This document shows, one piece after another, positions 675-24,477 of a DNA stretch of 64,000 nt. Position 1 is the stretch's first letter. Each line of letters starts with the position of its first letter. The notes beneath the pieces are model-generated. The model did not search any database. It saw only the letters and a program-made list of their open reading frames with translations, and had not been told where the DNA came from. Location: the NCBI GenBank assembly GCA_003327435.1, contig QOQV01000007.1:1-64000 (forward strand), in the 5' to 3' direction. The DNA is from Ignavibacteriota bacterium. GTDB taxonomy: Bacteria; Bacteroidota; Ignavibacteria; UBA10030; BY39. The position numbers were made by a program, and so were the translations under genes.

Positions 675-2384
675 ATGAAAAATTCTTACTTGAAATATTT
701 TTCTTACTTAATTTTTGTTTTCATTATTGCTGGTTGTAGTGGGGCAAAGGAAACAAATCAGGAAAAAACAACCATCATCAAAGGTGAAAATCGTGAGCGG
801 GCACTTGACCACTTCGTAAACGGCTCAATATATGACCAACAGGGCGACTATGCCAGAGCAATCCTCGAATACCAGGATGCATTACGATACGACAATGACC
901 CAGCTATTTATTATGCTCTGTCAAAGAGTTATGCCGCACTTGGTAAGATTGATCTTGGAATAGACGCTGCCAAAAACGCAATCAAACTTGACCCAAAGAA
1001 AAAGGAATATTACTTCAATCTCGCCGACTTATACTTGAGCTCAGGTGATCTATCAAATATGATAAATACATACAAACAAATTATCTCGCTTGATTCATCA
1101 GATTATAAAGCTTGGAATCAACTTGCCAGAATTTATCAAATATACAGAGATTATCAAAAAGCAATTGAAACTTATGAACAAATAGTTAAACGCTTTGGTC
1201 CTGAAACCGAAGTACTTTCTCAATTGTCGTTTTTATACTCACTACAGAAAAAACCTGAGCAGTCGATAATACTTCTCCGTCAGGTGTTGGAGCTGGAACC
1301 AGGTAATACCGATTTCAAAAAACAATTAGGCGGGTTATATGTCTCGATAGGAAATTTAGATTCAGCACTGACAATTTATGAGGATGTTGTTGAACAGCTT
1401 ACAACAGATGTAGAATCCAGAGCTGCCCTGTCGCATATTTATTTAATTAAGCAAAACTATGAAAAATTAGCTGAACAGTTTGATTTTATTCTAAAAGATG
1501 AGATTTTACCACTCGAATCACAATTAAGATATGCACAACTTGTTGCTTCTTTTATTCAAAAGGATTCAGCTGTTACGCCCTATGCATTACAACTTTTCGA
1601 AAAAATAAAAACTAAATATCCAGATGATTGGAGGCCTTATTTTTTCATTGGGTTAATTGCTTCCAGTATGAAAGATAATGATCTTGCTATTCAAAATTTC
1701 GAGGATGCACTTAAACTTGATAAATCTAATCCCGATCCATGGATTTATCTGGCTTCTTTATATTTCGAGAAACAAGAATATAGAAAAGTTATCGACTTAT
1801 TAAACCAATCACTACACCACATTTCTGAAGAGTTAAGAATCTATTTGCTAATGGGAATTTCGTATCAGAGGATTAATATTCTCGATAGTGCCGCACTAAA
1901 TCTCGAAAGAGCCTATCAGATAGACGAAAAAAACATAGATGTTATAACTTCTCTTGCTCTTGTATATGATGATCTTAAAAACTATGAAGAATCCGACAGT
2001 TTATATGAAAGGGGACTAAAACTCTATCCTGATAATCATCTCTTACTAAATAATTATGCATATAGTTTAAGTGTAAGAGGTCTACAACTTGAGCGAGCTT
2101 TGAAAATGTCGAAAAGGGCGCTTGAGCAACAACCTAAAAACCCTTCGTATCTGGATACGTATGGGTGGATTTTTTATCAACTTGGAAATTATAACGAAGC
2201 TCTGAGATACATCAAAGCTGCAATTGAAGAGGGTGAAGTAAGCGCAATTGTACTTGAACATCTTGGTGATGTGTATTATAAATTGGGCGATACCAATAAT
2301 GCTCTAAAATACTGGAAAGAAGCATACACAAAAGATAAAGATAACCAGGATTTAAAGAAAAAAATCGAAAAAGGGAGTTTGTGA
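675..2384 (+). CDS. TPR-repeat outer-membrane lipoprotein
   Basis: 569 residues. A hydrophobic N-terminus ends in a lipobox (IIAGC, Cys21), so it should be lipidated in the cell envelope. Almost all of the mature protein, from about residue 44 to 560, is consecutive tetratricopeptide repeats with the usual W/Y-x-x-L-G/A spacing, implying a scaffold for protein assembly. No catalytic domain is visible. Its last bases overlap the GTG start of the next gene, and it is the first of four tightly packed genes that end in an EnvC-like protein and a CHASE2 regulator. A TPR/DUF4292/EnvC order is familiar in Bacteroidota genomes. The lipoprotein and TPR calls are firm; the partner is unknown. Confidence 0.85.
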   Translation: MKNSYLKYFSYLIFVFIIAGCSGAKETNQEKTTIIKGENRERALDHFVNGSIYDQQGDYARAILEYQDALRYDNDPAIYYALSKSYAALGKIDLGIDAAKNAIKLDPKKKEYYFNLADLYLSSGDLSNMINTYKQIISLDSSDYKAWNQLARIYQIYRDYQKAIETYEQIVKRFGPETEVLSQLSFLYSLQKKPEQSIILLRQVLELEPGNTDFKKQLGGLYVSIGNLDSALTIYEDVVEQLTTDVESRAALSHIYLIKQNYEKLAEQFDFILKDEILPLESQLRYAQLVASFIQKDSAVTPYALQLFEKIKTKYPDDWRPYFFIGLIASSMKDNDLAIQNFEDALKLDKSNPDPWIYLASLYFEKQEYRKVIDLLNQSLHHISEELRIYLLMGISYQRINILDSAALNLERAYQIDEKNIDVITSLALVYDDLKNYEESDSLYERGLKLYPDNHLLLNNYAYSLSVRGLQLERALKMSKRALEQQPKNPSYLDTYGWIFYQLGNYNEALRYIKAAIEEGEVSAIVLEHLGDVYYKLGDTNNALKYWKEAYTKDKDNQDLKKKIEKGSL

Positions 2385-3136
2385 AGAATATCTGGAAAAA
2401 TTTTATTTTCGCCTTATTCGTTTTTCTCGCATCCTGTGCACCAACAAAGGAAACTTCTACTAAATTTAATAGAGCTGAAGATTTTGAAGAATATTTTAAG
2501 CAGAATATGAAAAACATTAAAACTTTTTATGGCACAGGAAATATTACAATCGAATCACCCGAGTTTTCAAATAATGCAAAGTGCAAAGTAAAAATTATTT
2601 ACCCGGATACCCTCTTTCTTGAATTAAAAGGAATATTCGGTATTTCCATCGGAATGCTTTTACTTAGAAATGAGGATTACATTTTCTATAATCAGATTGA
2701 AAACAAAATCATAACTGGAAATTTTAATACCCTAAATGAAAATCCATATTTAAATCTGAATCTTTCTACGAGAGAAATCATCGATTTTTTTGCCGGAAAA
2801 TTCTTTTACAATTATATAAACTTTAACTCATCACAGCTCATAAAAGATAACGGATACTACATTATAGAATCAAAAACAAATAATTTAAAAAAAAGAGTTT
2901 GGATAGATCCAGATAATCTAACTATTGATCGTGTTGTCGAATATAACGATCAAGATGAAAGTATTTTTGAAGGTATAGCAAAATTTTATGATAAAAAGCT
3001 GATGATGCCAACATGGATGCGTATCATCTTAAACTCCACACAAAGCAGTCTTACTTTAACATATAACGACATTCAGTTAAACAAAGAAATTGATCTGGAG
3101 ATACCGCAAATATTATTAAAAAAGCTAACACAATGA
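2381..3136 (+). CDS. DUF4292-type lipoprotein
   Basis: 251 residues from a GTG start that overlaps the stop of the TPR gene. The signal peptide ends in a lipobox (FLASC, Cys19). The rest looks like the DUF4292 family, whose fold resembles the LolA/LolB lipoprotein carriers: a run of beta strands with the words 'FYGTGNITIES' near the front and 'KKRVWIDPDNL' further on. DUF4292 proteins are usually next to EnvC-like genes in Bacteroidota, as here. It overlaps the following gene by four bases (ATGA). Role is inferred: possibly binding lipids or lipoproteins during outer-membrane or wall assembly. The DUF assignment is from recognition, not a search. Confidence 0.7.
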   Translation: MKNIWKNFIFALFVFLASCAPTKETSTKFNRAEDFEEYFKQNMKNIKTFYGTGNITIESPEFSNNAKCKVKIIYPDTLFLELKGIFGISIGMLLLRNEDYIFYNQIENKIITGNFNTLNENPYLNLNLSTREIIDFFAGKFFYNYINFNSSQLIKDNGYYIIESKTNNLKKRVWIDPDNLTIDRVVEYNDQDESIFEGIAKFYDKKLMMPTWMRIILNSTQSSLTLTYNDIQLNKEIDLEIPQILLKKLTQ

Positions 3137-4314
3137 AATTTTGTTTAAAATACATAATCGTCGTAATGTTATTTTTGACAGCATATGCAGGTGACAATGA
3201 TATAAAGAAAAAGCAGAGTGAATTACAAAAACTTCAGAAAGAGATTAATTTATGGGAACAGAAATTAGAAAATCGACAGAAAAAAGAGAAAGCCACACTT
3301 GAACTTTTAGACACCTACGATCAACAACTAGTTGCTCTAAGGAAGTTGATCAAAAATTTGAGAGAAAGTCAAAAATCACTTGAGAGGGAAATTGATAATA
3401 CAAAATTCAAAATAGGTGAAATTGAGAAGAAATTAAGTTTCATAAAGAAACAATATACAAATTATGTTATTAATGCTTACAAGCATGGTAAAATTTACGA
3501 TCTGGAATTACTTGTAACAGCAAAGTCATATAATCAATTATTAATTAGATCAAAATATTTACAAAAGTTTTCGGAATATCGAAAAAGGGATATTCAAAAA
3601 ATTGGGGAAAAGTTTGAAGAGCTACAAAAGCAACAGAATATTTTAGAAAATCAGCTTGTAGAATTAAATCAACTGCTTCAGAACAAAGCAACCGAAGAAA
3701 AGCGATTAATAGCCAGATCCGAAGAGAGAAAAAAAATATTAACACAAATAAAAAGGGATAAACAAAACTTTCAAAAGGAACTGGAAAGAAAAAGGAAAGC
3801 AGTTAAAGATTTAGAGAATTTGATAACCAAGTTAATTGAAGATGAGGAAAAAGAGAAAGATATAAAAACAACATACTCTGAATCGGCAGCTGGAATTTTT
3901 GAAATCAGAAAAGGAAAACTTCCCTGGCCAGTTAAAACAGGTAAGTTAATAGGAAAATTTGGTATTCAACAACACCCAGTTCTAAAAACTTACTCGAATA
4001 ATACCGGAATTGATATTGCTGTACCACCGGGTACAAATGTTCATGCAATCGCAGACGGTGTTGTAGCAACTATATGGTGGTTGCCCTCTTATGGAAATCT
4101 CATAATAATAAATCATTTTAACAATTATCGAACAGTTTACGCTAATTTATCTGAAATTGATGTTAATGAAGGTGATAAAGTAACCGAAGGAACAATTATC
4201 GGTAAAAGTGGAGAATCAATCAACGGTGCACAGATTCATTTTGAAATCTGGAAAGGTCGTGAAAAACAAAATCCCGAAGTATGGTTACACCCACAGGAAT
4301 TCGCTAAGAGATGA
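3133..4314 (+). CDS. EnvC-like murein hydrolase activator (degenerate LytM/M23)
   Basis: 393 residues: signal peptide of about 19, a long lysine/glutamate-rich coiled coil (about 20-250) and a C-terminal LytM/M23 domain (about 265-385). Active M23 enzymes bind zinc through HxGxD and HxH. Here the first motif reads NTGID (about 289-293), with Asn for His, and the last reads QIHFEIW (His369), with Gln for the first His. This loss of zinc ligands, together with the coiled coil, is the signature of EnvC, which activates periplasmic amidases rather than cutting peptidoglycan itself. No amidase gene is in the window. Four-base overlaps join it to both neighbours. Confidence 0.85.
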
Positions 4315-6926
4315 AAAGTAAAGAAGCAAAATTTACTCTCATTACACTTTTTGTCTTAATTGTTCTTTCATATATTTTTTCAGGAGTTTTCTTTACGCTG
4401 GATAAACACCTTCTCGATTTAAAATTCAAACTACGTGGTGAAATCCCAATCGATTCATCTACAATCATTCTTTACCTGGATAATGATGATATTAACGCAC
4501 TTGGAGGATTACCTTTAAAAAGAAACTATTACGCACTCGCAGTAAATATTCTAAACGAGTTAAATGCTAAAGTAATTGGTCTTGATGTAGCATTAACAGA
4601 GCATAGCATCGATAAACCTGAATATGATGAGGTTTTGACTAAAACTGTCGGTGCTAAAAAGAATGTAGTACTCACAAGTTATTTCGATTCAATATCAGAA
4701 GAAGAACCTAATTTATCATTCAGATTACCTGAGGAGATTGGTTATAAAATAAACCCCTCAACAAAATTCTTTTCAGGTGAAAAACTAAATCTTCCATTTT
4801 TAGAACTTCAAAAAGCGGCATACTCAATTGGGCACGAAAATATCACAGAAGAGGGTAAAATTCCTTTATTCATAAGTCAAACAAACGGGCTTATGCCTGC
4901 ATTTGCTCTCGAACTCTTTCGAGCATTTGTTAACACAGAAAAAAGCAAACTAAAAATTCAAAACTCTGAATTGCTAATAGAGGCACAGGATAAATTATAC
5001 ACAATTCCTTTTGAAAAAAATGGTATTGTAAATCTAAACTATACTGGCGGAGCTAAAACTTTATTAGCAATACCTCTGGTTGAATTTTTACAAGCTTACA
5101 ATCTTTACAAAAAAGGTGGAATTACCGATATAGATGTAACTTCGGTCAAAAACAAAATTGTAATAATTGGTATTGTAGCTACGGGGCGAAGTGTATTTGT
5201 TAAATCTCCATTCTCCTCACAATATCCAGCCATAGGCTTACACGCAACTTTTATAGATAACATTCTTAAAAACAGATTCATATCTAAAATGCCAGTAATA
5301 CTGGAACTTTTTCTAATTTTGGTTGCAGCATTAATATTTTCCTATTTTACATATCGAGGTAACGAGTTAAAAACATTCATAGTTCTTTTAATATATTTCT
5401 TTTTTTATTTCATAATGTCACTACTTTTGTTTAGCATCTCCAATTTTGACCTTACAATTACCAGGCATTATATAATCCTGATAATTCAGATGATTTCGGT
5501 TGTGGTTTATAGAAATTATCTGGTAAAAGAGGAGGTACGCAATCTTGAAATTGAAAGAGATGCGATTCATAAGAAACTTCATGATCGTGAAGAAAAATTG
5601 ATCAAACTTCAAAACGAGTTAAGAAAAGCCGAGATGGAAAATGCTTTACAAAGAAAAGGTAAATTGGTAAACGAGATAAAGAAATTTGAGAAAGAAGTTA
5701 GCATATTAAAACTTCAAATTAATGAATACGAAAAATTGGCTCACATAACAGATAACTATGAGAACTTTGAAGGTATAATCTATTCAGCTACAAGTCCGAT
5801 GAAAAGTGTCGTTGAATTTTTAAAAAAGATTGCTGATAATGATTCGCCTGTATTAATACTTGGAGAAAGCGGAACAGGGAAAGAATTAATTGCGAGAGCA
5901 ATCCACAGAAAAAGCCACCGCTCAGATAAACCTTTTGTGGCTTTAAACTGTGGAGCTCTAACCGAAACCTTACTCGAAAGTGAACTCTTTGGTTACGAAA
6001 AAGGTGCATTCACTGGTGCAACTAAAGAAAAACCTGGACGATTTGAACTGGCAGATGGAGGAACTATCTTTTTAGATGAAATAGCTGAAACGAGTGAAGC
6101 CTTTCAGGTAAAATTATTAAGAATACTTCAGGAGGGGGAATTTGAAAGAGTGGGTGGAACAGAAACAAAAAAAGTTAATGTAAGAGTGCTTGCAGCTACA
6201 AACAAAAATATCATCGACAGCATTGATGAGAAAAAATTCAGACAGGATCTCTATTACAGATTAAGCGTATTTGTTATAAATTTACCTCCATTAAGAGAAA
6301 GAAAAGAAGATATTCCAATATTAGTAAAACATTTCATTGAACTTGAAAACAAAGATATGAAATGTTCCAGTGAAGTTGTCGAAGTTTTATTGAAATACCC
6401 ATTTAATGGTAATGTCAGAGAATTGCAGAGTATAATTAAAAGAGCTGTGGTGCTTGCCACATCTGAGAAGCGTAATTATCTAAAATTATCAGATTTACCA
6501 GAAGATATCCAGAAACTTCAGAAAAACAAGGAAGACCTTGCTGAACGAATCATGAAATCAATTAGGGAAAAAAAATTTTCAAAAAACTCAATCTCCGAAA
6601 CTGCAAAAGAGCTTGGGGGAATGAATCGAAGTACAGTCGCAGAATATTTCAGGGGTTATTGTTTTAAAACTATCGTGGAAAAAAATTACCATCTTGATGA
6701 TGCCATCTTAGAAATTGCCGATTCGATCGAACCCGAAATAATAAATAAGGTGAAAAAGAAGGTAATTGAATACCTCAAAAATGCTTTAGAGAATATCGAT
6801 AAAAATTTTAATTTAGAAACAAATTTAAGGAAAAACAGGGCAAAGTTTAAAAATTTACCCCAAAAATATCATTATTATCTTGAGGAAATAATTAAGCATT
6901 ATATAAAGGACGAGTTTAAAATATAA
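4311..6926 (+). CDS. Membrane-bound CHASE2 sensor / sigma-54 activator
   Basis: 871 residues. Order: one N-terminal membrane helix (about 8-28), an extracytoplasmic CHASE2 domain (about 30-325), three membrane helices (about 325-410), a coiled coil (about 410-480), then a sigma-54 AAA+ domain with Walker A GESGTGKE (about 518), the sigma-54 contact loop GAFTGA (565-570) and DEIAE. A Fis-like helix-turn-helix lies near 760-785 ([11 protein letters not shown]...RSTVAEYF), followed by an unusual tail of roughly 90 charged residues. It should sense an envelope signal and drive a sigma-54 promoter directly, with no separate kinase. It is last in an envelope operon, and a sigma-54 promoter lies 170 bases downstream. 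No receiver or histidine kinase domain is present. Confidence 0.9.
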
Positions 6927-6948
6927 AAATATGCTGGATAAAAAGCTT

Positions 6949-6979
6949 TCCGGCAGTTCCACCGTCAAATCCGGCAGTT
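6949..6979 (+). promoter_or_regulatory. Candidate enhancer: direct repeats for the sigma-54 activator
   Basis: The ten-base word TCCGGCAGTT occurs at 6949-6958 and again at 6970-6979. The start-to-start distance is 21 bases, two turns of the helix, so both copies face the same side. They lie about 115-145 bases upstream of the -24 element at 7095, the usual range for upstream activator sites, and directly after the activator gene. The repeat is G+C-rich against an AT-rich background. Binding is inferred. Confidence 0.55.
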
Positions 6980-7094
6980 AGATGACCTGAAACATAATAA
7001 GAATCACCATTTTAAATCATAAAAACCAACAAAATTAACCAAATTTAAACATTCCATTAGCAAATCCTAAAATTTAATAACTTTAATTTAAAAC

Positions 7095-7110
7095 TGGCAC
7101 GGGAATTGGA
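7095..7110 (+). promoter_or_regulatory. Sigma-54 (-24/-12) promoter
   Basis: TGGCACG at 7095-7101, four bases, then TTGGA at 7106-7110. The sigma-54 consensus is TGGCACG-N4-TTGCW, so the only departure is G for C in the -12 element, and the spacing is exact. The transcript would start near 7121 and leave a leader of about 148 bases before the ATG at 7269. It sits between the sigma-54 activator gene and the operon starting at 7269, its obvious target. Confidence 0.8.
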
Positions 7111-7158
7111 ATTATAATGCACATATGAAAAACAAACTACAAAACATAGAACAAAATT

Positions 7159-7225
7159 CCATCCCGTTGTCCACAAGTTTTGTTTTTTTAAATAATCGGG
7201 CTCGTGGGGAGAAACAGCGGGATGG
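7159..7225 (+). promoter_or_regulatory. Structured 5' leader hairpin
   Basis: Within the predicted leader, 7159-7170 (CCATCCCGTTGT) pairs with 7214-7225 (ACAGCGGGATGG) over twelve base pairs, one of them G-U. Inside it, CCAC at 7171-7174 can pair with GTGG at 7204-7207, leaving GGAGAA bulged on the 3' side. It ends 43 bases before the start codon. It has no T tract, so it is not a terminator as written. It could stabilise the message or be a protein or ligand site; I recognise no riboswitch class. A reading frame open through it from 7125 probably is not translated, since 7269 has the ribosome site and signal peptide. Confidence 0.55.
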
Positions 7226-7268
7226 TAAAGTTTATATAAAATCATGTATAAAAAATAAAGGAGTCGTT

Positions 7269-8243
7269 ATGCGCAATTTAAAAATCCCAACATTTATAAT
7301 ATTTATCCTATCAATTATATTTATAACTGGATGTCAGAAAGACACAATAGTGGATCCAGGTACAATAACTGAAGATGATTATCTAAAACAACAGGCAATC
7401 AGTGCAGAGGAAGTAGCGGGTTACATTCAAAACGAAGAAGTTTCGATTGAGGATGAATACGAAAAGGATATGAACTATGATGAATTTGGAATATTAAAGA
7501 CGACAGATCCCATCACACCAATCAAATGGGCACGAAAAATTGATAGAGTAGTAAAAACTTTGCTTGTTGAACAAATAAACGATACTATCAAAGTAGTAAC
7601 TATCGTAAAAGATATTTCCGGTAGATTTATTATCAAAGCCATTAAAGATTCCAATGGAATTACTGATACGGTAAGGATTATTAAGCCATACACATCTACA
7701 ATCACACGCAAGGTTAGATTTTTAAAAATAAACAACAACAACGATTTCAAGAAGAACTGGAAACCAATTGCCATTACATTAGTTGAAGGAAAAACGAATA
7801 CAAAGAATTTTATTATCTCGACTCTTGAAGTTATGACATCTGTTGATACTGCTACTATAACCGACCCACTGACTTATTGGGTAAGATTTGCACCTGGTAG
7901 AGGCGGCGTTTCACTTGTGAAGCCCGGCGATGCTTTCATTATCAGGGTAACTGTTACAAGCGAGAATCCACAAGCTGAATATGCCTGCTTAAGAACTGGT
8001 CTTGATTCTGGCTTTAAACGCCATCGTGCACGTTTCCAGATGGATTTGGTAAGTGAATCTGAATCCAACGGAATTTATACTCGAGTTTACCAAAAAGTGT
8101 TTGCTGCACGACTTCCAATGGGAATCTCTTTCGGGCATATGAATGCAATCGTAGATGTAATGTCCTATAACTCAATCAATGATGATTCTGCCCCTTATAT
8201 GAATTCGTTCTGGGGGATGCCTTATTTAGTAAAGAGATTTTAA
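7269..8243 (+). CDS. Lipoprotein of unknown function, first gene of sigma-54 operon
   Basis: 324 residues. The start at 7269 is chosen because it follows AAAGGAG by a few bases and begins a clear signal peptide with lipobox FITGC (Cys22); an in-frame ATG at 7125 would place 48 polar residues before the signal. After an acidic linker the protein is mixed beta-rich with no motif I recognise. 'ITPIKWARKI' and 'RFQMDLVSESES' suggest a beta-sandwich, but this is weak. It is the first gene after the sigma-54 promoter and structured leader, so it is probably made on an envelope signal. Function unknown. Confidence 0.75.
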   Translation: MRNLKIPTFIIFILSIIFITGCQKDTIVDPGTITEDDYLKQQAISAEEVAGYIQNEEVSIEDEYEKDMNYDEFGILKTTDPITPIKWARKIDRVVKTLLVEQINDTIKVVTIVKDISGRFIIKAIKDSNGITDTVRIIKPYTSTITRKVRFLKINNNNDFKKNWKPIAITLVEGKTNTKNFIISTLEVMTSVDTATITDPLTYWVRFAPGRGGVSLVKPGDAFIIRVTVTSENPQAEYACLRTGLDSGFKRHRARFQMDLVSESESNGIYTRVYQKVFAARLPMGISFGHMNAIVDVMSYNSINDDSAPYMNSFWGMPYLVKRF

Positions 8244-8258
8244 ACGTTTCAAATTCAT

Positions 8259-8304
8259 AACTCCTTTCCCGTCTTCAGCTCCTGCTGAAGGCGGGAAGTG
8301 AGTT
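8259..8304. repeat. 21-bp stem palindrome between two lipoprotein genes
   Basis: Arms 8259-8279 and 8284-8304 pair over 21 positions with one mismatch and two G-T pairs around a TCCT loop; the core is TTCAGC/GCTGAA inside CCCG/CGGG. Five Ts (8303-8307) close the right arm, and outer TTTCAAA/TTTGAAA can extend the stem. It could be a partial terminator, a message-stabilising hairpin, or a dispersed REP-like palindrome; its CTTCAGCTCCTGCTGAAG core resembles elements repeated across many genomes. It lies inside the presumed operon. Confidence 0.65.
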
Positions 8305-8339
8305 TTTGAAAGTAAAAACTATATAATTAAATTTAAACT

Positions 8340-9230
8340 ATGAAAACTTCAAAAATAACAACAATATTAATAAGCCTCTTGATATTGCTTAATGCATGTC
8401 AAAAACAAACGCCAGTTGAGCTGGTGGATAAAACCGATGATTCCAATTTGATAAATATCCAACCATTGCCACCATCGTTGGATTCCCTGTACCTGGTATC
8501 AGATGAAGATTCAAGTGGAAATATCGGCATGTTAAATACAAAATTCTTTGCCAAACTGGTGTATCAATCTATTCGAATAGATCGACCATTTCGAGCCGAC
8601 AGTTTCACAACTGCAGAAGCAATATTCTTCGATAACAAAAATCCTATACGACACAATAATCGTATTATTGCTTATCCATCGTTCGATATAGGAACTCTAA
8701 GATTTAATAATCAGATTATGAATAAATTTCAAAGAAGGATAATGATTCCATTAAGAGGTGATTCACTAATTGGTTTTAGATATCATTTGCGCAATGCTTA
8801 CGAGTATAACTACACTAATAGATGGTCAACAAATGGACAGGATTCCTTTCCACCTTTTGAATTCACAGTAAATGCCCCTCCACAGATTCGGATAACAAAT
8901 TTAGTGTCAGGCACGATCAACATTTCTGAACCACTATATATAAAGTGGAATTGTTCAAGCCCTGAAATCAACTTATTCATAAGCACTGAAGCCGGCAACC
9001 TGCTTCAGCGCCAGCTGATACCCATACTTCATCTCAGAATAAAAAACACAAAAGGGGAAATAACTATTCCTGTCAGAATACTTGAACTACTACCTGTGAA
9101 AAAATATTCTCGTTATATGTTCACATTTACTTCTGAATACAAATTTACAAGAGAAATTTCAGGATACTCAGAAAAAATTCTTATCTATTCTGCCTCAGTT
9201 CATAGTATAATGCTGAACTTACAACAATAA
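8340..9230 (+). CDS. Lipoprotein of unknown function
   Basis: 296 residues with a signal peptide and lipobox LLNAC (Cys20). The mature part is beta-rich. Near 180-260 the words 'NAPPQIRITN' and 'PLYIKWNCSSPEINLFIS' resemble an Ig-like or fibronectin-like sandwich of the kind found in surface lipoproteins of this phylum. No enzyme motif is visible. It follows the first lipoprotein of the sigma-54 operon after a 96-base gap that holds the large palindrome, and precedes a beta-barrel gene by five bases. It may be an outer-membrane partner of that barrel; this is inference from position. Confidence 0.7.
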   Translation: MKTSKITTILISLLILLNACQKQTPVELVDKTDDSNLINIQPLPPSLDSLYLVSDEDSSGNIGMLNTKFFAKLVYQSIRIDRPFRADSFTTAEAIFFDNKNPIRHNNRIIAYPSFDIGTLRFNNQIMNKFQRRIMIPLRGDSLIGFRYHLRNAYEYNYTNRWSTNGQDSFPPFEFTVNAPPQIRITNLVSGTINISEPLYIKWNCSSPEINLFISTEAGNLLQRQLIPILHLRIKNTKGEITIPVRILELLPVKKYSRYMFTFTSEYKFTREISGYSEKILIYSASVHSIMLNLQQ

Positions 9231-9235
9231 CACGG

Positions 9236-11254
9236 ATGAAAATATCTAGACTTAAAATTTTTGTAACTATCTCATATTTGATGTTCATAATAAATTACTT
9301 AACTTTTTCTCAGCATCTCGGCTCAAGTAGAAATATAGGAATTGCAGCTGCAACTTCTAATCCTTTAGATATAAATTCTATCGACTGGAATCCTGCAGGC
9401 TTAACATCTGTTGTAGATTGGAAACTAGAAATCTCAAATTTTATAACTCCAACAATTACTGGTTCAGGATTATCATTTCATAATTTCGGTATTGCAAAAA
9501 GATTTTCTGAAAAACACGCAATTGCATTAAAATATTCACCAGGTTCGAACCTGGAATTTGTCGTCCCAACTACATTCACATTCCTTGATGCTGATAATAA
9601 TCCAATTGTTGCAAATTTTGACAAAAAAATTTCTTATAATCAAATATATTCTCTTGGTTATGCTTCTAATATTTTAAATAACCTCTCAATTGGAGCAAGC
9701 ACAAGATTCTATGAAACAAAAATTTCTGAAACAAAATATTCGCTCGACACAAACAATATCATCAAAACTGAAATTCAGGACTATTCTTCAACACAATGGA
9801 GTATCGACATTGGTAGTATATATGAACCTTATCAAAACTTAAATTTCGGGATCGTGTTTAAAAACCTATTTGTAATAAGGGAAAGTGAATTCAACGAAAA
9901 TTATAAAACGTACCAACTAAAGTTCCCCAAAATTGTAAGATTGGGTCTATCTTACCAAACTCTCAATAATCTCCTTTTTTCATTTGATTTAGATTCAAAG
10001 AAAAATTTTAACTTTGGTGTAGAATTTCCTACAATAAATTTTTTAAAACTTAGAGGTGGCGTATATTCCAGTAACTTTAAGAAATTTGATGCAGGCACAA
10101 TCGGAATTGGACTTACCTATCAGAATTTTCAACTCGATTTAAGCTATTTAAAATTTTTCAACCAAACTAATAGAAAAGGTACATCCAATTTACAATCCTT
10201 TTATGAATCAAATTTTTTTGATATAGATTATAATTCTTTTACATCGGATAGGATATCCGTTTCTATCGGAATAAAGTTAGGCAAAATAAAAGAACAGCTT
10301 GTAAAAATTGAATATGTGGAGATATTTGGTGAAGTGTTTCCATCATCATATCAGACTTATGCATTTAGACCCATTGGAAAAGCCAGAATTAAAAACATAT
10401 CATCCAAACCTGTTGAAGTAAAAGTTAGCTTTTACATAAAGGATTTGATGGATGAACCAACGCAGTCAAGACCTTTAAAATTGCTTTCAGGGGAAAATGC
10501 AGAGGTTCCCATTTTTGCGATATTCAATAAGGCAATACAATTTGTAAAAAACTTTTCAATTCATGATGGAAATATATTTGTTTATGCAGAACCAACAAAC
10601 GAATTTGACGATCGTTATCAGACACCTGTAATTATCAGAGGGAGAAATGACTGGAATGGAGATGTATCGCAATTAAGATACTTCATCACTCCAGATGATC
10701 CGGAAGTTATGAAATTTGCACGCACCTCTATTCAAAAAAACATTAGGAATGATGCAACAACTTTATTATCAAAGTTTGAAAATGCAAAGATAATATTTAA
10801 TGAGCTATCGAGAATTATTACATATGTAAACGATCCCAACCAGAGCACAGATTTTGTACAATACCCGGCTGAAACATTGAATTTACACGGTGGAGATTGC
10901 GACGATATTACTGTATGTTACTCAGCTTTACTGGAAAGCATCGGAATTAAAGTTGCACTGATTGATGTAGTACCACCCGATAATCCAAAGAATGCACATA
11001 TATATTTGATGTTTGATACGGAAATTACCGTAGAAAATGCTGCATCAATCAGCGATAATTCAAAAAAGTATATCATAAGGAAAAATTCCGAAGGCAAAGA
11101 AACGGTCTGGATTCCAATAGAAACCACACAGCTCTCAAAAGGCTTTACAGAAGCATGGAATTATGCTGCGTCAGAATATTTTAATGATGCAGTTATAAAC
11201 AACGGCTTATCAAAAGGCTGGATTCGAATTGTTGATTTAAACCTAACATATTAA
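9236..11254 (+). CDS. Outer-membrane beta-barrel protein with transglutaminase-like domain
   Basis: 672 residues in three parts. After a signal peptide ending near FSQ, residues about 27-350 read like a PorV/FadL-type barrel: the start 'SSRNIGIAAATSNPLDINSIDWNPAGL' is typical, followed by alternating strands. Residues about 360-470 look like an Ig/CARDB module ('VEVKVSFYIKDLMDE'). Residues about 490-670 hold a transglutaminase-like core with 'GGDCDD' (Cys555) and 'NAHIYLMFD' (His588), the order expected for a Cys-His-Asp triad; the Asp is not certain. This places a papain-like fold at the cell surface or in the periplasm. The combination is unusual. It is the third gene of the sigma-54 operon. 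Confidence 0.75.
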   Translation: MKISRLKIFVTISYLMFIINYLTFSQHLGSSRNIGIAAATSNPLDINSIDWNPAGLTSVVDWKLEISNFITPTITGSGLSFHNFGIAKRFSEKHAIALKYSPGSNLEFVVPTTFTFLDADNNPIVANFDKKISYNQIYSLGYASNILNNLSIGASTRFYETKISETKYSLDTNNIIKTEIQDYSSTQWSIDIGSIYEPYQNLNFGIVFKNLFVIRESEFNENYKTYQLKFPKIVRLGLSYQTLNNLLFSFDLDSKKNFNFGVEFPTINFLKLRGGVYSSNFKKFDAGTIGIGLTYQNFQLDLSYLKFFNQTNRKGTSNLQSFYESNFFDIDYNSFTSDRISVSIGIKLGKIKEQLVKIEYVEIFGEVFPSSYQTYAFRPIGKARIKNISSKPVEVKVSFYIKDLMDEPTQSRPLKLLSGENAEVPIFAIFNKAIQFVKNFSIHDGNIFVYAEPTNEFDDRYQTPVIIRGRNDWNGDVSQLRYFITPDDPEVMKFARTSIQKNIRNDATTLLSKFENAKIIFNELSRIITYVNDPNQSTDFVQYPAETLNLHGGDCDDITVCYSALLESIGIKVALIDVVPPDNPKNAHIYLMFDTEITVENAASISDNSKKYIIRKNSEGKETVWIPIETTQLSKGFTEAWNYAASEYFNDAVINNGLSKGWIRIVDLNLTY

Positions 11255-11265
11255 GGAGTTTAAAA

Positions 11266-11967
11266 ATGAAAAAACTAAAAATTATTTGGTTGATACTTTT
11301 CGTCATAACAACAGATATATTTCCACAAATAAAGCTCATTTCTGTAAAAGGTGAAGTAAAAATCAGAAAAGGTGTTAGCGAAGAGTGGCAATCAGTAAAA
11401 CCAACTTCTTTATTGAATTTAGAAGATGCAATATCAATCGGTTTAAAATCCACTGCAGTAATTGAAATAGATGGGCAAAGAAAAATTACACTACCTGAAC
11501 AATCTATCGTTGAAATTTCTGATCTCCGTGAACTTTCGAAGGATGAGCTTTTATTAAAACTTGCGATGGATCGTATCCTCGCTGTACCTCAGCAGGACAG
11601 GAAAAATGATCTTATACCAGCACCCTCTGCTGTCATTCACGGTGAGAAAAAAAGCAACTCCGAGTTGGGGATAAAAAAACCAAATCATGATGTAGCAATT
11701 AAAACATTAAATGGAGCTAAGTTTTTGTATGGAAACAATTATTATGGCACCTGTGCGCTCAGAATTAAAGAAGTTTTAAGATTATATCCTGATTTACCCA
11801 AATCTACGGATTATAAAATTATGACTGCATTGGCATTAGAAAAAGCAGAACTCTATGAAGAAGCATTAAACGAACTATATTTACTAGACCCTGGAAACTT
11901 AACAGCTGAACAAAAATCGTTTGTTCAGAGCAAGATCGAAAAGTTAAAGAAAAAATTTAGCGATTAA
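11266..11967 (+). CDS. FecR-like domain protein with helical C-terminus
   Basis: 233 residues. It follows the barrel gene by eleven bases with a strong AAGGAG site. A signal peptide (about 1-20) is followed by a FecR-like beta region ('VKGEVKIRKGVSEEWQSVKPTSLLNLEDAISIGLKSTAVIEIDGQRKITL'-type pattern, about 24-80), then a linker and a TPR-like helical end (about 140-230). FecR domains often sit in periplasmic or surface sensor and scaffold proteins; there is no anti-sigma segment here. It closes the sigma-54 operon and ends base-to-base against a convergent gene. Confidence 0.65.
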   Translation: MKKLKIIWLILFVITTDIFPQIKLISVKGEVKIRKGVSEEWQSVKPTSLLNLEDAISIGLKSTAVIEIDGQRKITLPEQSIVEISDLRELSKDELLLKLAMDRILAVPQQDRKNDLIPAPSAVIHGEKKSNSELGIKKPNHDVAIKTLNGAKFLYGNNYYGTCALRIKEVLRLYPDLPKSTDYKIMTALALEKAELYEEALNELYLLDPGNLTAEQKSFVQSKIEKLKKKFSD

Positions 11968-22725: not shown

Positions 22726-24477
22726 ATGATGCAGCTTATTGACTGGTTACTTATCTTAACATATTTTATAATTTCTCTTTTGATAGGTATCTATTACTCA
22801 AAAAGGGCTGGAAGAAGTACGAGCGAATTTTTTCTTTCGGGAAGAAATCTGCCCTGGTGGCTGGCTGGCACCTCAATGGTTGCAACAACATTTGCTGCTG
22901 ATACACCTCTTGCAGTAACAGAACTTGTTACTAAAAACGGAATTGCTGGAAACTGGCTTTGGTGGAACTTTGTGTTCGGTAGTATGTTAACGGTTTTTTT
23001 CTTTGCTCGTCTCTGGAGAAGAGCAGGGGTAATGACAGATGTAGAATTTATCGAAATGCGCTATTCAGGAAAATCTGCTGCTTTTCTGAGAGGTTTTCGC
23101 GCACTTTATCTCGGATTGTTCATAAATTGCATAATTATGGGATGGGTAAATACCGCTATGGCTTCAATATTACACGGACTTTTCGGAATTGAACAATCAA
23201 GTGTAATTTTCTATGTAGCTTTAAGTATGCTCATTGTTGCGATTTATTCTGCCATATCAGGTTTGTGGGGGGTAGCAATGACTGATATGTTCCAATTCAT
23301 AATTGCAATGATTGGTACGACAATCCTCGCTATCTTTGTCCTATCCTTACCTGAAGTCGGTGGAATTGCCGGCTTGAAAAGTAAATTACCTGATTGGACT
23401 TTCAATTTTTTCCCTTCGATTCAATCAGTAAGTGATATTGGAATAGGAAGCGCTCTTGCACTTTCCATCTCATCTTTTCTTGCATATATTGGGATTCAAT
23501 GGTGGGCATCCTGGTATCCTGGAGCAGAGCCAGGTGGCGGTGGTTATGCTGCACAACGAATGATGTCAGCGAAGAACGAAAAACATTCTCTTCTGGCAAC
23601 ACTCTGGTTCACAATTGCTCATTACTGCATCCGTCCATGGCCATGGATATTGGTTGGACTCTCAACTTTAATATTATATCCAGAGCTTGATGATAAAAAA
23701 TTGGGATACATTTTTGCAATGCGGGACTTTTTGCCAACAGGTTTGCTCGGTTTGCTTGTTGCTGCTTTCTTTGCAGCTTATATGTCCACAATTGCAACTC
23801 ATCTCAATTGGGGAACATCTTATATAGTCAATGACTTTTACAGACGGTTCATCAAACAAAATGCTCAAGAAAAACATTATGTGCTTATTTCCAGAATCTC
23901 TACAATTATTCTTATGTTGGTATCTCTTTTAATTACTTTGTTTATCGAAACAATATCCGGTGCTTGGGCATTTATTATTGAGGCAGGTGCGGGCTTAGGC
24001 TTGGTATTAATCTTAAGATGGTACTGGTGGAGAATCAATGCCTGGTCTGAAATTTCAGCAATGATCGCACCTTTCATCGCTTTTGGGTATGTAAAATTTT
24101 TCACCAATATCAAATTCCCTGAATCACTCTACATGATTGTTTCTTTTACTACCATCGTCTGGATTGTTATCACATTCATTACAAACCCAACAGATTTTGA
24201 AACATTGAAAAAATTTTTTGTAAAAGTTCATCCGGGTGGGTTATGGAAACCAATTTCCCAGAGAGTACCTGATGTAGAACAGGATAAAGGTTTGATTTCG
24301 CTCGCTTTCGATTGGATTGCAGGAATTGTGTTAATCTATTCATCATTATTTGGTATCGGAAAGTTAATTTTTAATGAATATTATCAGGCACTTTTATTTT
24401 TAATTCTGGCACTTGTTTCTGGTTTGTTTTTATTTTCTCATATATCAAAATATGGTTGGGAAAAAATTGCTGAATAA
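22726..24477 (+). CDS. Sodium:solute symporter (SSS family), larger paralogue
   Basis: 583 residues, about 14-15 helices. It begins 'DWLLILTYFIISLLIGIYYSKRAGRSTSEFFLSGRNLPWWLAGTSMVATTFAADTPLAVTELV', the SSS pattern with Asp/Thr in place of the usual 'ETS' motif. 'PGAEPGGGGYAAQRMMSAKNE' and 'ATHLNWGTSYIVNDFYRRF' are typical of the subgroup annotated as sodium:proline or sodium/galactose symporters. Substrate unknown. An ATGATG start. It precedes the IMPase gene by 37 bases; the following hexuronate genes are on the other strand. Confidence 0.9.
   Translation: MMQLIDWLLILTYFIISLLIGIYYSKRAGRSTSEFFLSGRNLPWWLAGTSMVATTFAADTPLAVTELVTKNGIAGNWLWWNFVFGSMLTVFFFARLWRRAGVMTDVEFIEMRYSGKSAAFLRGFRALYLGLFINCIIMGWVNTAMASILHGLFGIEQSSVIFYVALSMLIVAIYSAISGLWGVAMTDMFQFIIAMIGTTILAIFVLSLPEVGGIAGLKSKLPDWTFNFFPSIQSVSDIGIGSALALSISSFLAYIGIQWWASWYPGAEPGGGGYAAQRMMSAKNEKHSLLATLWFTIAHYCIRPWPWILVGLSTLILYPELDDKKLGYIFAMRDFLPTGLLGLLVAAFFAAYMSTIATHLNWGTSYIVNDFYRRFIKQNAQEKHYVLISRISTIILMLVSLLITLFIETISGAWAFIIEAGAGLGLVLILRWYWWRINAWSEISAMIAPFIAFGYVKFFTNIKFPESLYMIVSFTTIVWIVITFITNPTDFETLKKFFVKVHPGGLWKPISQRVPDVEQDKGLISLAFDWIAGIVLIYSSLFGIGKLIFNEYYQALLFLILALVSGLFLFSHISKYGWEKIAE

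Follow-up and report, generated by a model that had tools for sequence, protein, structure and literature searches.

A predicted CHASE2-containing sigma-54 activator with a putative paired operator, promoter and leader RNA at a cell-surface operon of an Ignavibacteriota bacterium

The locus lies in a 64-kb stretch of DNA from an Ignavibacteriota bacterium, the whole of which is referred to here as the window. The gene of a predicted sigma-54 activator is followed on the same strand by two short repeats, a sigma-54-like promoter, a putative leader RNA and four genes (7269–11967), which are treated as one operon. The features are as follows:

675–4314, forward strand: genes 5' of the activator, encoding a TPR protein, a LolB-like DUF4292 lipoprotein and an EnvC-like M23 protein (syntenic in relatives)
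4311–6926, forward strand: activator gene, 871 aa (Pfam scan and translation)
6948–6958, forward strand: upstream repeat 1, TTCCGGCAGTT, proposed activator site (exact match; conserved in orthologous loci)
6969–6979, forward strand: upstream repeat 2, ATCCGGCAGTT, proposed activator site (21 bp after repeat 1; 21–22 bp in orthologues)
7095–7110, forward strand: sigma-54 -24/-12 promoter, TGGCACG-N4-TTGGA (motif search; counterparts in orthologous loci)
about 7121, forward strand: predicted transcription start, placed from the -24/-12 site
7156–7227, forward strand: putative structured leader RNA in the 5' UTR, a 12-bp covarying stem with a large loop (model R1, E 1.1e-11, the window sequence being itself one row of this model)
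7269–8243, forward strand: operon gene 1, lipoprotein-like, 324 aa, without a Pfam family (orthologues)
8265–8298, forward strand: strong terminator-like hairpin in the gap separating genes 1 and 2 (most relatives examined have a hairpin of another sequence here)
8340–9230, forward strand: operon gene 2, lipoprotein-like, 296 aa (orthologues)
9236–11254, forward strand: gene 3, 672 aa, PorV/PorQ-like barrel with a C-terminal transglutaminase-like domain (Pfam and alignment, both domain matches being below the curated cut-offs)
11266–11967, forward strand: gene 4, FecR-like periplasmic protein, 233 aa (assigned by eye, no Pfam match; orthologues)

The activator begins with a CHASE2 domain (PF05226, residues 16–342, E 3e-36) followed by transmembrane stretches, the latter read by eye, as is expected of a CHASE2 receptor. 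A Sigma54_activat AAA+ domain (PF00158, residues 493–656, E 5e-70), an AAA lid (residues 662–742) and a C-terminal helical domain containing a helix-turn-helix (HTH) complete the protein. The GAFTGA motif expected for interaction with sigma-54 and the Walker A and B motifs are present in the translation. Together with the Pfam matches this bears out the preliminary description, in which the gene ending at 6926 was said to encode a GAFTGA-type activator. Judged by its domains, the protein is not a generic activator: a predicted membrane sensor of the CHASE2 type is joined to the sigma-54 AAA+ domain.

An AlphaFold2 model of the last 145 residues (mean pLDDT 91.9) consists of an HTH plus additional helices. 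This C-terminal domain belongs to no Pfam family, and HTH_8 is absent among the matches listed for 32 of its members. Comparison with PDB sequences gave no match at E <= 0.05, and a fold search against the PDB returned nothing significant (best matches at E > 2). A Fis-type HTH, as in the NtrC/NifA subfamily, was rejected on these three results. Searched with a profile of the domain, 37 of 396 genomes from a sample spanning the phylum gave matches, with essentially a single copy in each and mostly within open frames of about 740–900 codons; CHASE2 and the AAA+ domain are likewise present in those distant members that were checked. In the plasmid collection searched, no record covers 80% of the activator, and the best matches include its central part only, in NifA and other sigma-54-dependent regulators. 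One activator match (L025, genome G002) is truncated by the end of a contig and has an internal TAG and TAA, which could reflect a pseudogene or an assembly problem.

Downstream of the activator gene, TCCGGCAGTT occurs exactly at 6949–6958 and 6970–6979, offset by 21 bp, and has no further exact copy in the 64 kb. The promoter site at 7095–7110 reads TGGCACGGGAATTGGA, and nowhere else in the window is TGGCACG-N4-TTGC matched with one mismatch or fewer. The GG and GC elements of a -24/-12 promoter stand 10 bases apart, with the single mismatch in the -12 GC itself (its C is replaced, giving GG instead of GC); TTGGA at -12 is frequent among relatives. Every base claimed for the two repeats and their 21-base spacing, and for a promoter one base off the consensus, was found in place. 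The consensus derived from comparison, TTCCSGCAnTT, is a direct repeat longer than the motif first proposed. The search for other repeat pairs that had been suggested as a check found this pair to be unique in the 2.63-Mb genome with up to three mismatches allowed. A looser pattern search gave one extra match with two mismatches, at 24383, which was rejected as lying within coding sequence. The operon is the sole target found in the source genome.

The block TPR, DUF4292, M23, activator, gene 1, gene 2, PorV/transglutaminase and FecR is kept in many relatives, and full-length activators are present across the order. Orthologous loci, 42 in named genomes, were located through the PorV/transglutaminase protein; their record titles read Ignavibacteria, Bacteroidota or Chlorobi. 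In 36 of the 41 loci whose upstream sequence is long enough, gene 1 is preceded by a pair of TTCCSGCA-like repeats whose spacing of 21 or 22 bp is that expected of phased upstream sites. A TGGCAY-N5-TT site follows 60 to 138 bp 3' of the pair in nearly all pair-bearing loci, in a table that includes by-eye corrections. The pair is not clear in a few loci (L070, L089). Conservation of the repeats in relatives retaining both genes, the other check suggested with the preliminary description, is thus found. The pattern TTCCSGCA-N11..15-TTCCSGCA was counted in 98 genomes of the order: it has about 57 matches, most of them at the orthologous intergenic position, compared with 5 for a reversed control pattern.

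The distance from repeat 2 to the -24 element is clustered (60–62, 72–74, 82–84, 94–98, 105–110, 114–119, 127 and 138 bp). These values recur at steps of about 11 bp (Rayleigh R 0.65 at 11.1 bp, reached by about 5e-5 of uniform draws), in a test for which related loci were collapsed by hand and some promoters chosen by eye. The fit at 10.5 bp is poorer (R 0.43). Of six extra regulon sites, three do not fit this phase.

In three genomes (G010, G059, G038) the operon lies apart from the activator gene and still has the pair and the promoter, and neither is found 3' of the activator gene. The repeats of Ignavibacteriaceae are TTCAGGCR or TTCCATGCA; here the two copies have altered in parallel, with the 21-bp spacing kept (by eye). 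At the corresponding place, the activator HTH of this family reads SHSS..NRT..SEN, versus SRSS..NRGTVAEY elsewhere. Sequence comparison establishes that the elements exist, that they are conserved and linked to the operon, and that the operator varies jointly with the HTH.

Gene 1 could also be read from 7125 as a 372-aa frame. This start was rejected because the lipoprotein signal begins at 7269 and the matching frame of the closest relative stops before gene 1. Gene 3 joins a PorV/PorQ-like barrel and a transglutaminase-like domain in a single protein, which is kept with the operon. Most of the relatives examined likewise have a hairpin in the interval from gene 1 to gene 2, though of a different sequence; L037 is an exception. 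The hairpin at 8265–8298 may limit read-through into genes 2–4, and therefore these genes could be expressed below the level of gene 1.

A putative second target gene encodes a predicted type IX-secreted protein with CarboxypepD_reg and Por_Secre_tail. This T9SS-cargo-like gene is the fifth of the operon, after FecR, in G004, G024 and G005. In G003, G049, G030 and G022 it is located elsewhere with its own pair and promoter; in the source genome and its closest relative it also lies elsewhere, with neither pair nor promoter. In family f5 the regulon may be larger. Extra operator pairs with a sigma-54-like site were observed 5' of other genes in G086 and G008 (L151, L152); the pair at L152 precedes a gene for a beta-lactamase-fold protein with a secretion tail.

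Two alternative explanations of the promoter region were weighed against these data. The sigma-54-like site could be a chance match, in which case an ordinary sigma factor would drive the operon and the repeats would have another role. The sole mismatch does hit the critical -12 dinucleotide, and sigma-70-like hexamers are found nearby, at chance level. Against this, TGGCAY-N5-TT recurs about 60 to 138 bp 3' of the pair at nearly all orthologous loci, and the genome has the rpoN gene (PF04552, E 1.4e-57, an open frame of 483 residues) on which the preliminary description depended. A chance match is hence extremely improbable. Control of the operon by some other sigma-54 activator, or by an unrelated repressor acting on the repeats, would reduce the CHASE2 activator to a mere syntenic neighbour. 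At least 15 places in the genome resemble the AAA+ domain and could supply another activator. This explanation is nevertheless quite improbable, since the operator sequence changes along with the activator's own HTH, the gene block and the sites are conserved jointly across the order, and genomes carry essentially a single member of the C-terminal domain family.

The reading preferred here is that the CHASE2 activator binds the repeats and switches on the cell-surface operon through sigma-54, which is considered very probable on the sequence evidence. The preliminary description had proposed that the activator drives the 7269–11967 operon, and this proposal is supported by the conserved sites, the linkage to the operon, the joint HTH change and the second, putatively co-regulated gene. 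The binding of the activator, looping, the start site, the signal and the regulation of the operon are predictions. The CHASE2 domain would sense some envelope or extracellular signal. The C-terminal HTH could then bind the two TTCCSGCAnTT repeats, which lie two helical turns apart 3' of the activator gene, and DNA looping would carry the AAA+ ring to the RNA polymerase–sigma-54 complex at 7095–7110. ATP-driven opening would allow transcription from near 7121. The transcript would contain the hairpin leader, followed by the coding regions of two lipoprotein-like proteins, the PorV-like transglutaminase protein and the FecR-like protein.

The leader lies between the sigma-54 promoter and gene 1. 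Among the 98 genomes of the order, 14 have a match to R1; they belong to the source's genus and to family f2, and the leader is 5' of gene 1 in each of the 14. Extension to 391 sampled genomes of the class added just one weak match. Twelve stem pairs are kept almost throughout, and changes on both sides occur in 9 of 15 stem pairs, compared with 2–4 for slid controls; fitting of the alignment to the model favours structure, but the pattern could be seen before any fitting. The stem is rich in G-U pairs on the mRNA strand, and the loop of family f2 is nearly invariant (AAUCACRUGCGGGCRU). Rfam gave chance-level matches only for the window leader and none for six relatives. An extra copy of the leader in G020 (L137:1501–1568) is situated between a gene for a predicted type IX-secreted protein and a TPR gene, and has no operator pair.

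The hairpin at 7156–7227 could instead be a DNA-level element providing extra activator sites, since the TGCGGG of the f2 loop is the reverse complement of that family's six-base operator core CCCGCA. The operator of the source's genus has CCGGCA, yet the loop there is not TGCCGG. The stem covaries, and the opposite strand scores far lower. Extra DNA operators are disfavoured by the strand-specific G-U pairing, and this explanation is unlikely. As an RNA, the leader would be regulatory or stabilising. It is possible, as a tentative extension, that the same envelope operon is under two layers of control: a CHASE2–sigma-54 activator whose DNA-binding domain is of an undescribed type, and a cis-regulatory leader RNA of an equally undescribed class, the near-invariant loop of which would bind a ligand or protein and so gate expression.

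By the features tested, the system is a predicted sigma-54 enhancer system outside the Fis-type HTH subfamily. It resembles NtrC/NifA-type systems in the GAFTGA AAA+ domain, the -24/-12 promoter, the paired sites about 60–140 bp upstream and the adjacent operon. It differs from them in the membrane CHASE2 sensor, in the C-terminal domain, which is not a Fis-type HTH, and in the direct-repeat operator TTCCSGCAnTT.

A CHASE2 sensor genetically tied to a FecR-domain envelope protein is also known from the Burkholderia BiofilmReg operon, which encodes a CreB-type regulator, a LysM-FecR protein and a CHASE2 histidine kinase (PMC5192318). There CHASE2 belongs to a histidine kinase acting on a response regulator (PMC5192318), whereas in the present system it is part of the sigma-54 activator itself. 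The signals perceived by CHASE2 domains are unknown, as stated for the Burkholderia system (PMC5192318). With a one-protein CHASE2 receptor and a single located target promoter in the source genome, such a signal could be tested by a reporter.

The predicted targets (lipoproteins, outer-membrane or secreted proteins) agree with the view of sigma-54 as a controller of the bacterial exterior (PMC3162934), and the envelope genes adjoin the activator gene here, as in that picture. The main text of PMC3162934, searched for 'Bacteroid' and 'CHASE', mentions neither, and the literature search found no paper joining CHASE2 with sigma-54 or enhancer-binding proteins. The comparison yields a predicted regulon in Ignavibacteria and their relatives, a type of DNA-binding domain that Pfam does not cover, and a leader RNA with covariation that is not in Rfam.

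The leader shares a covarying stem, a conserved loop and a position between promoter and ribosome-binding site with riboswitches, protein-binding leaders and stabilising 5' hairpins. It differs from them in matching no Rfam family and in having been found only in two families of the order. The sigma-54 enhancer principle is already known; the combination of sensor, activator, operator and leader is new.
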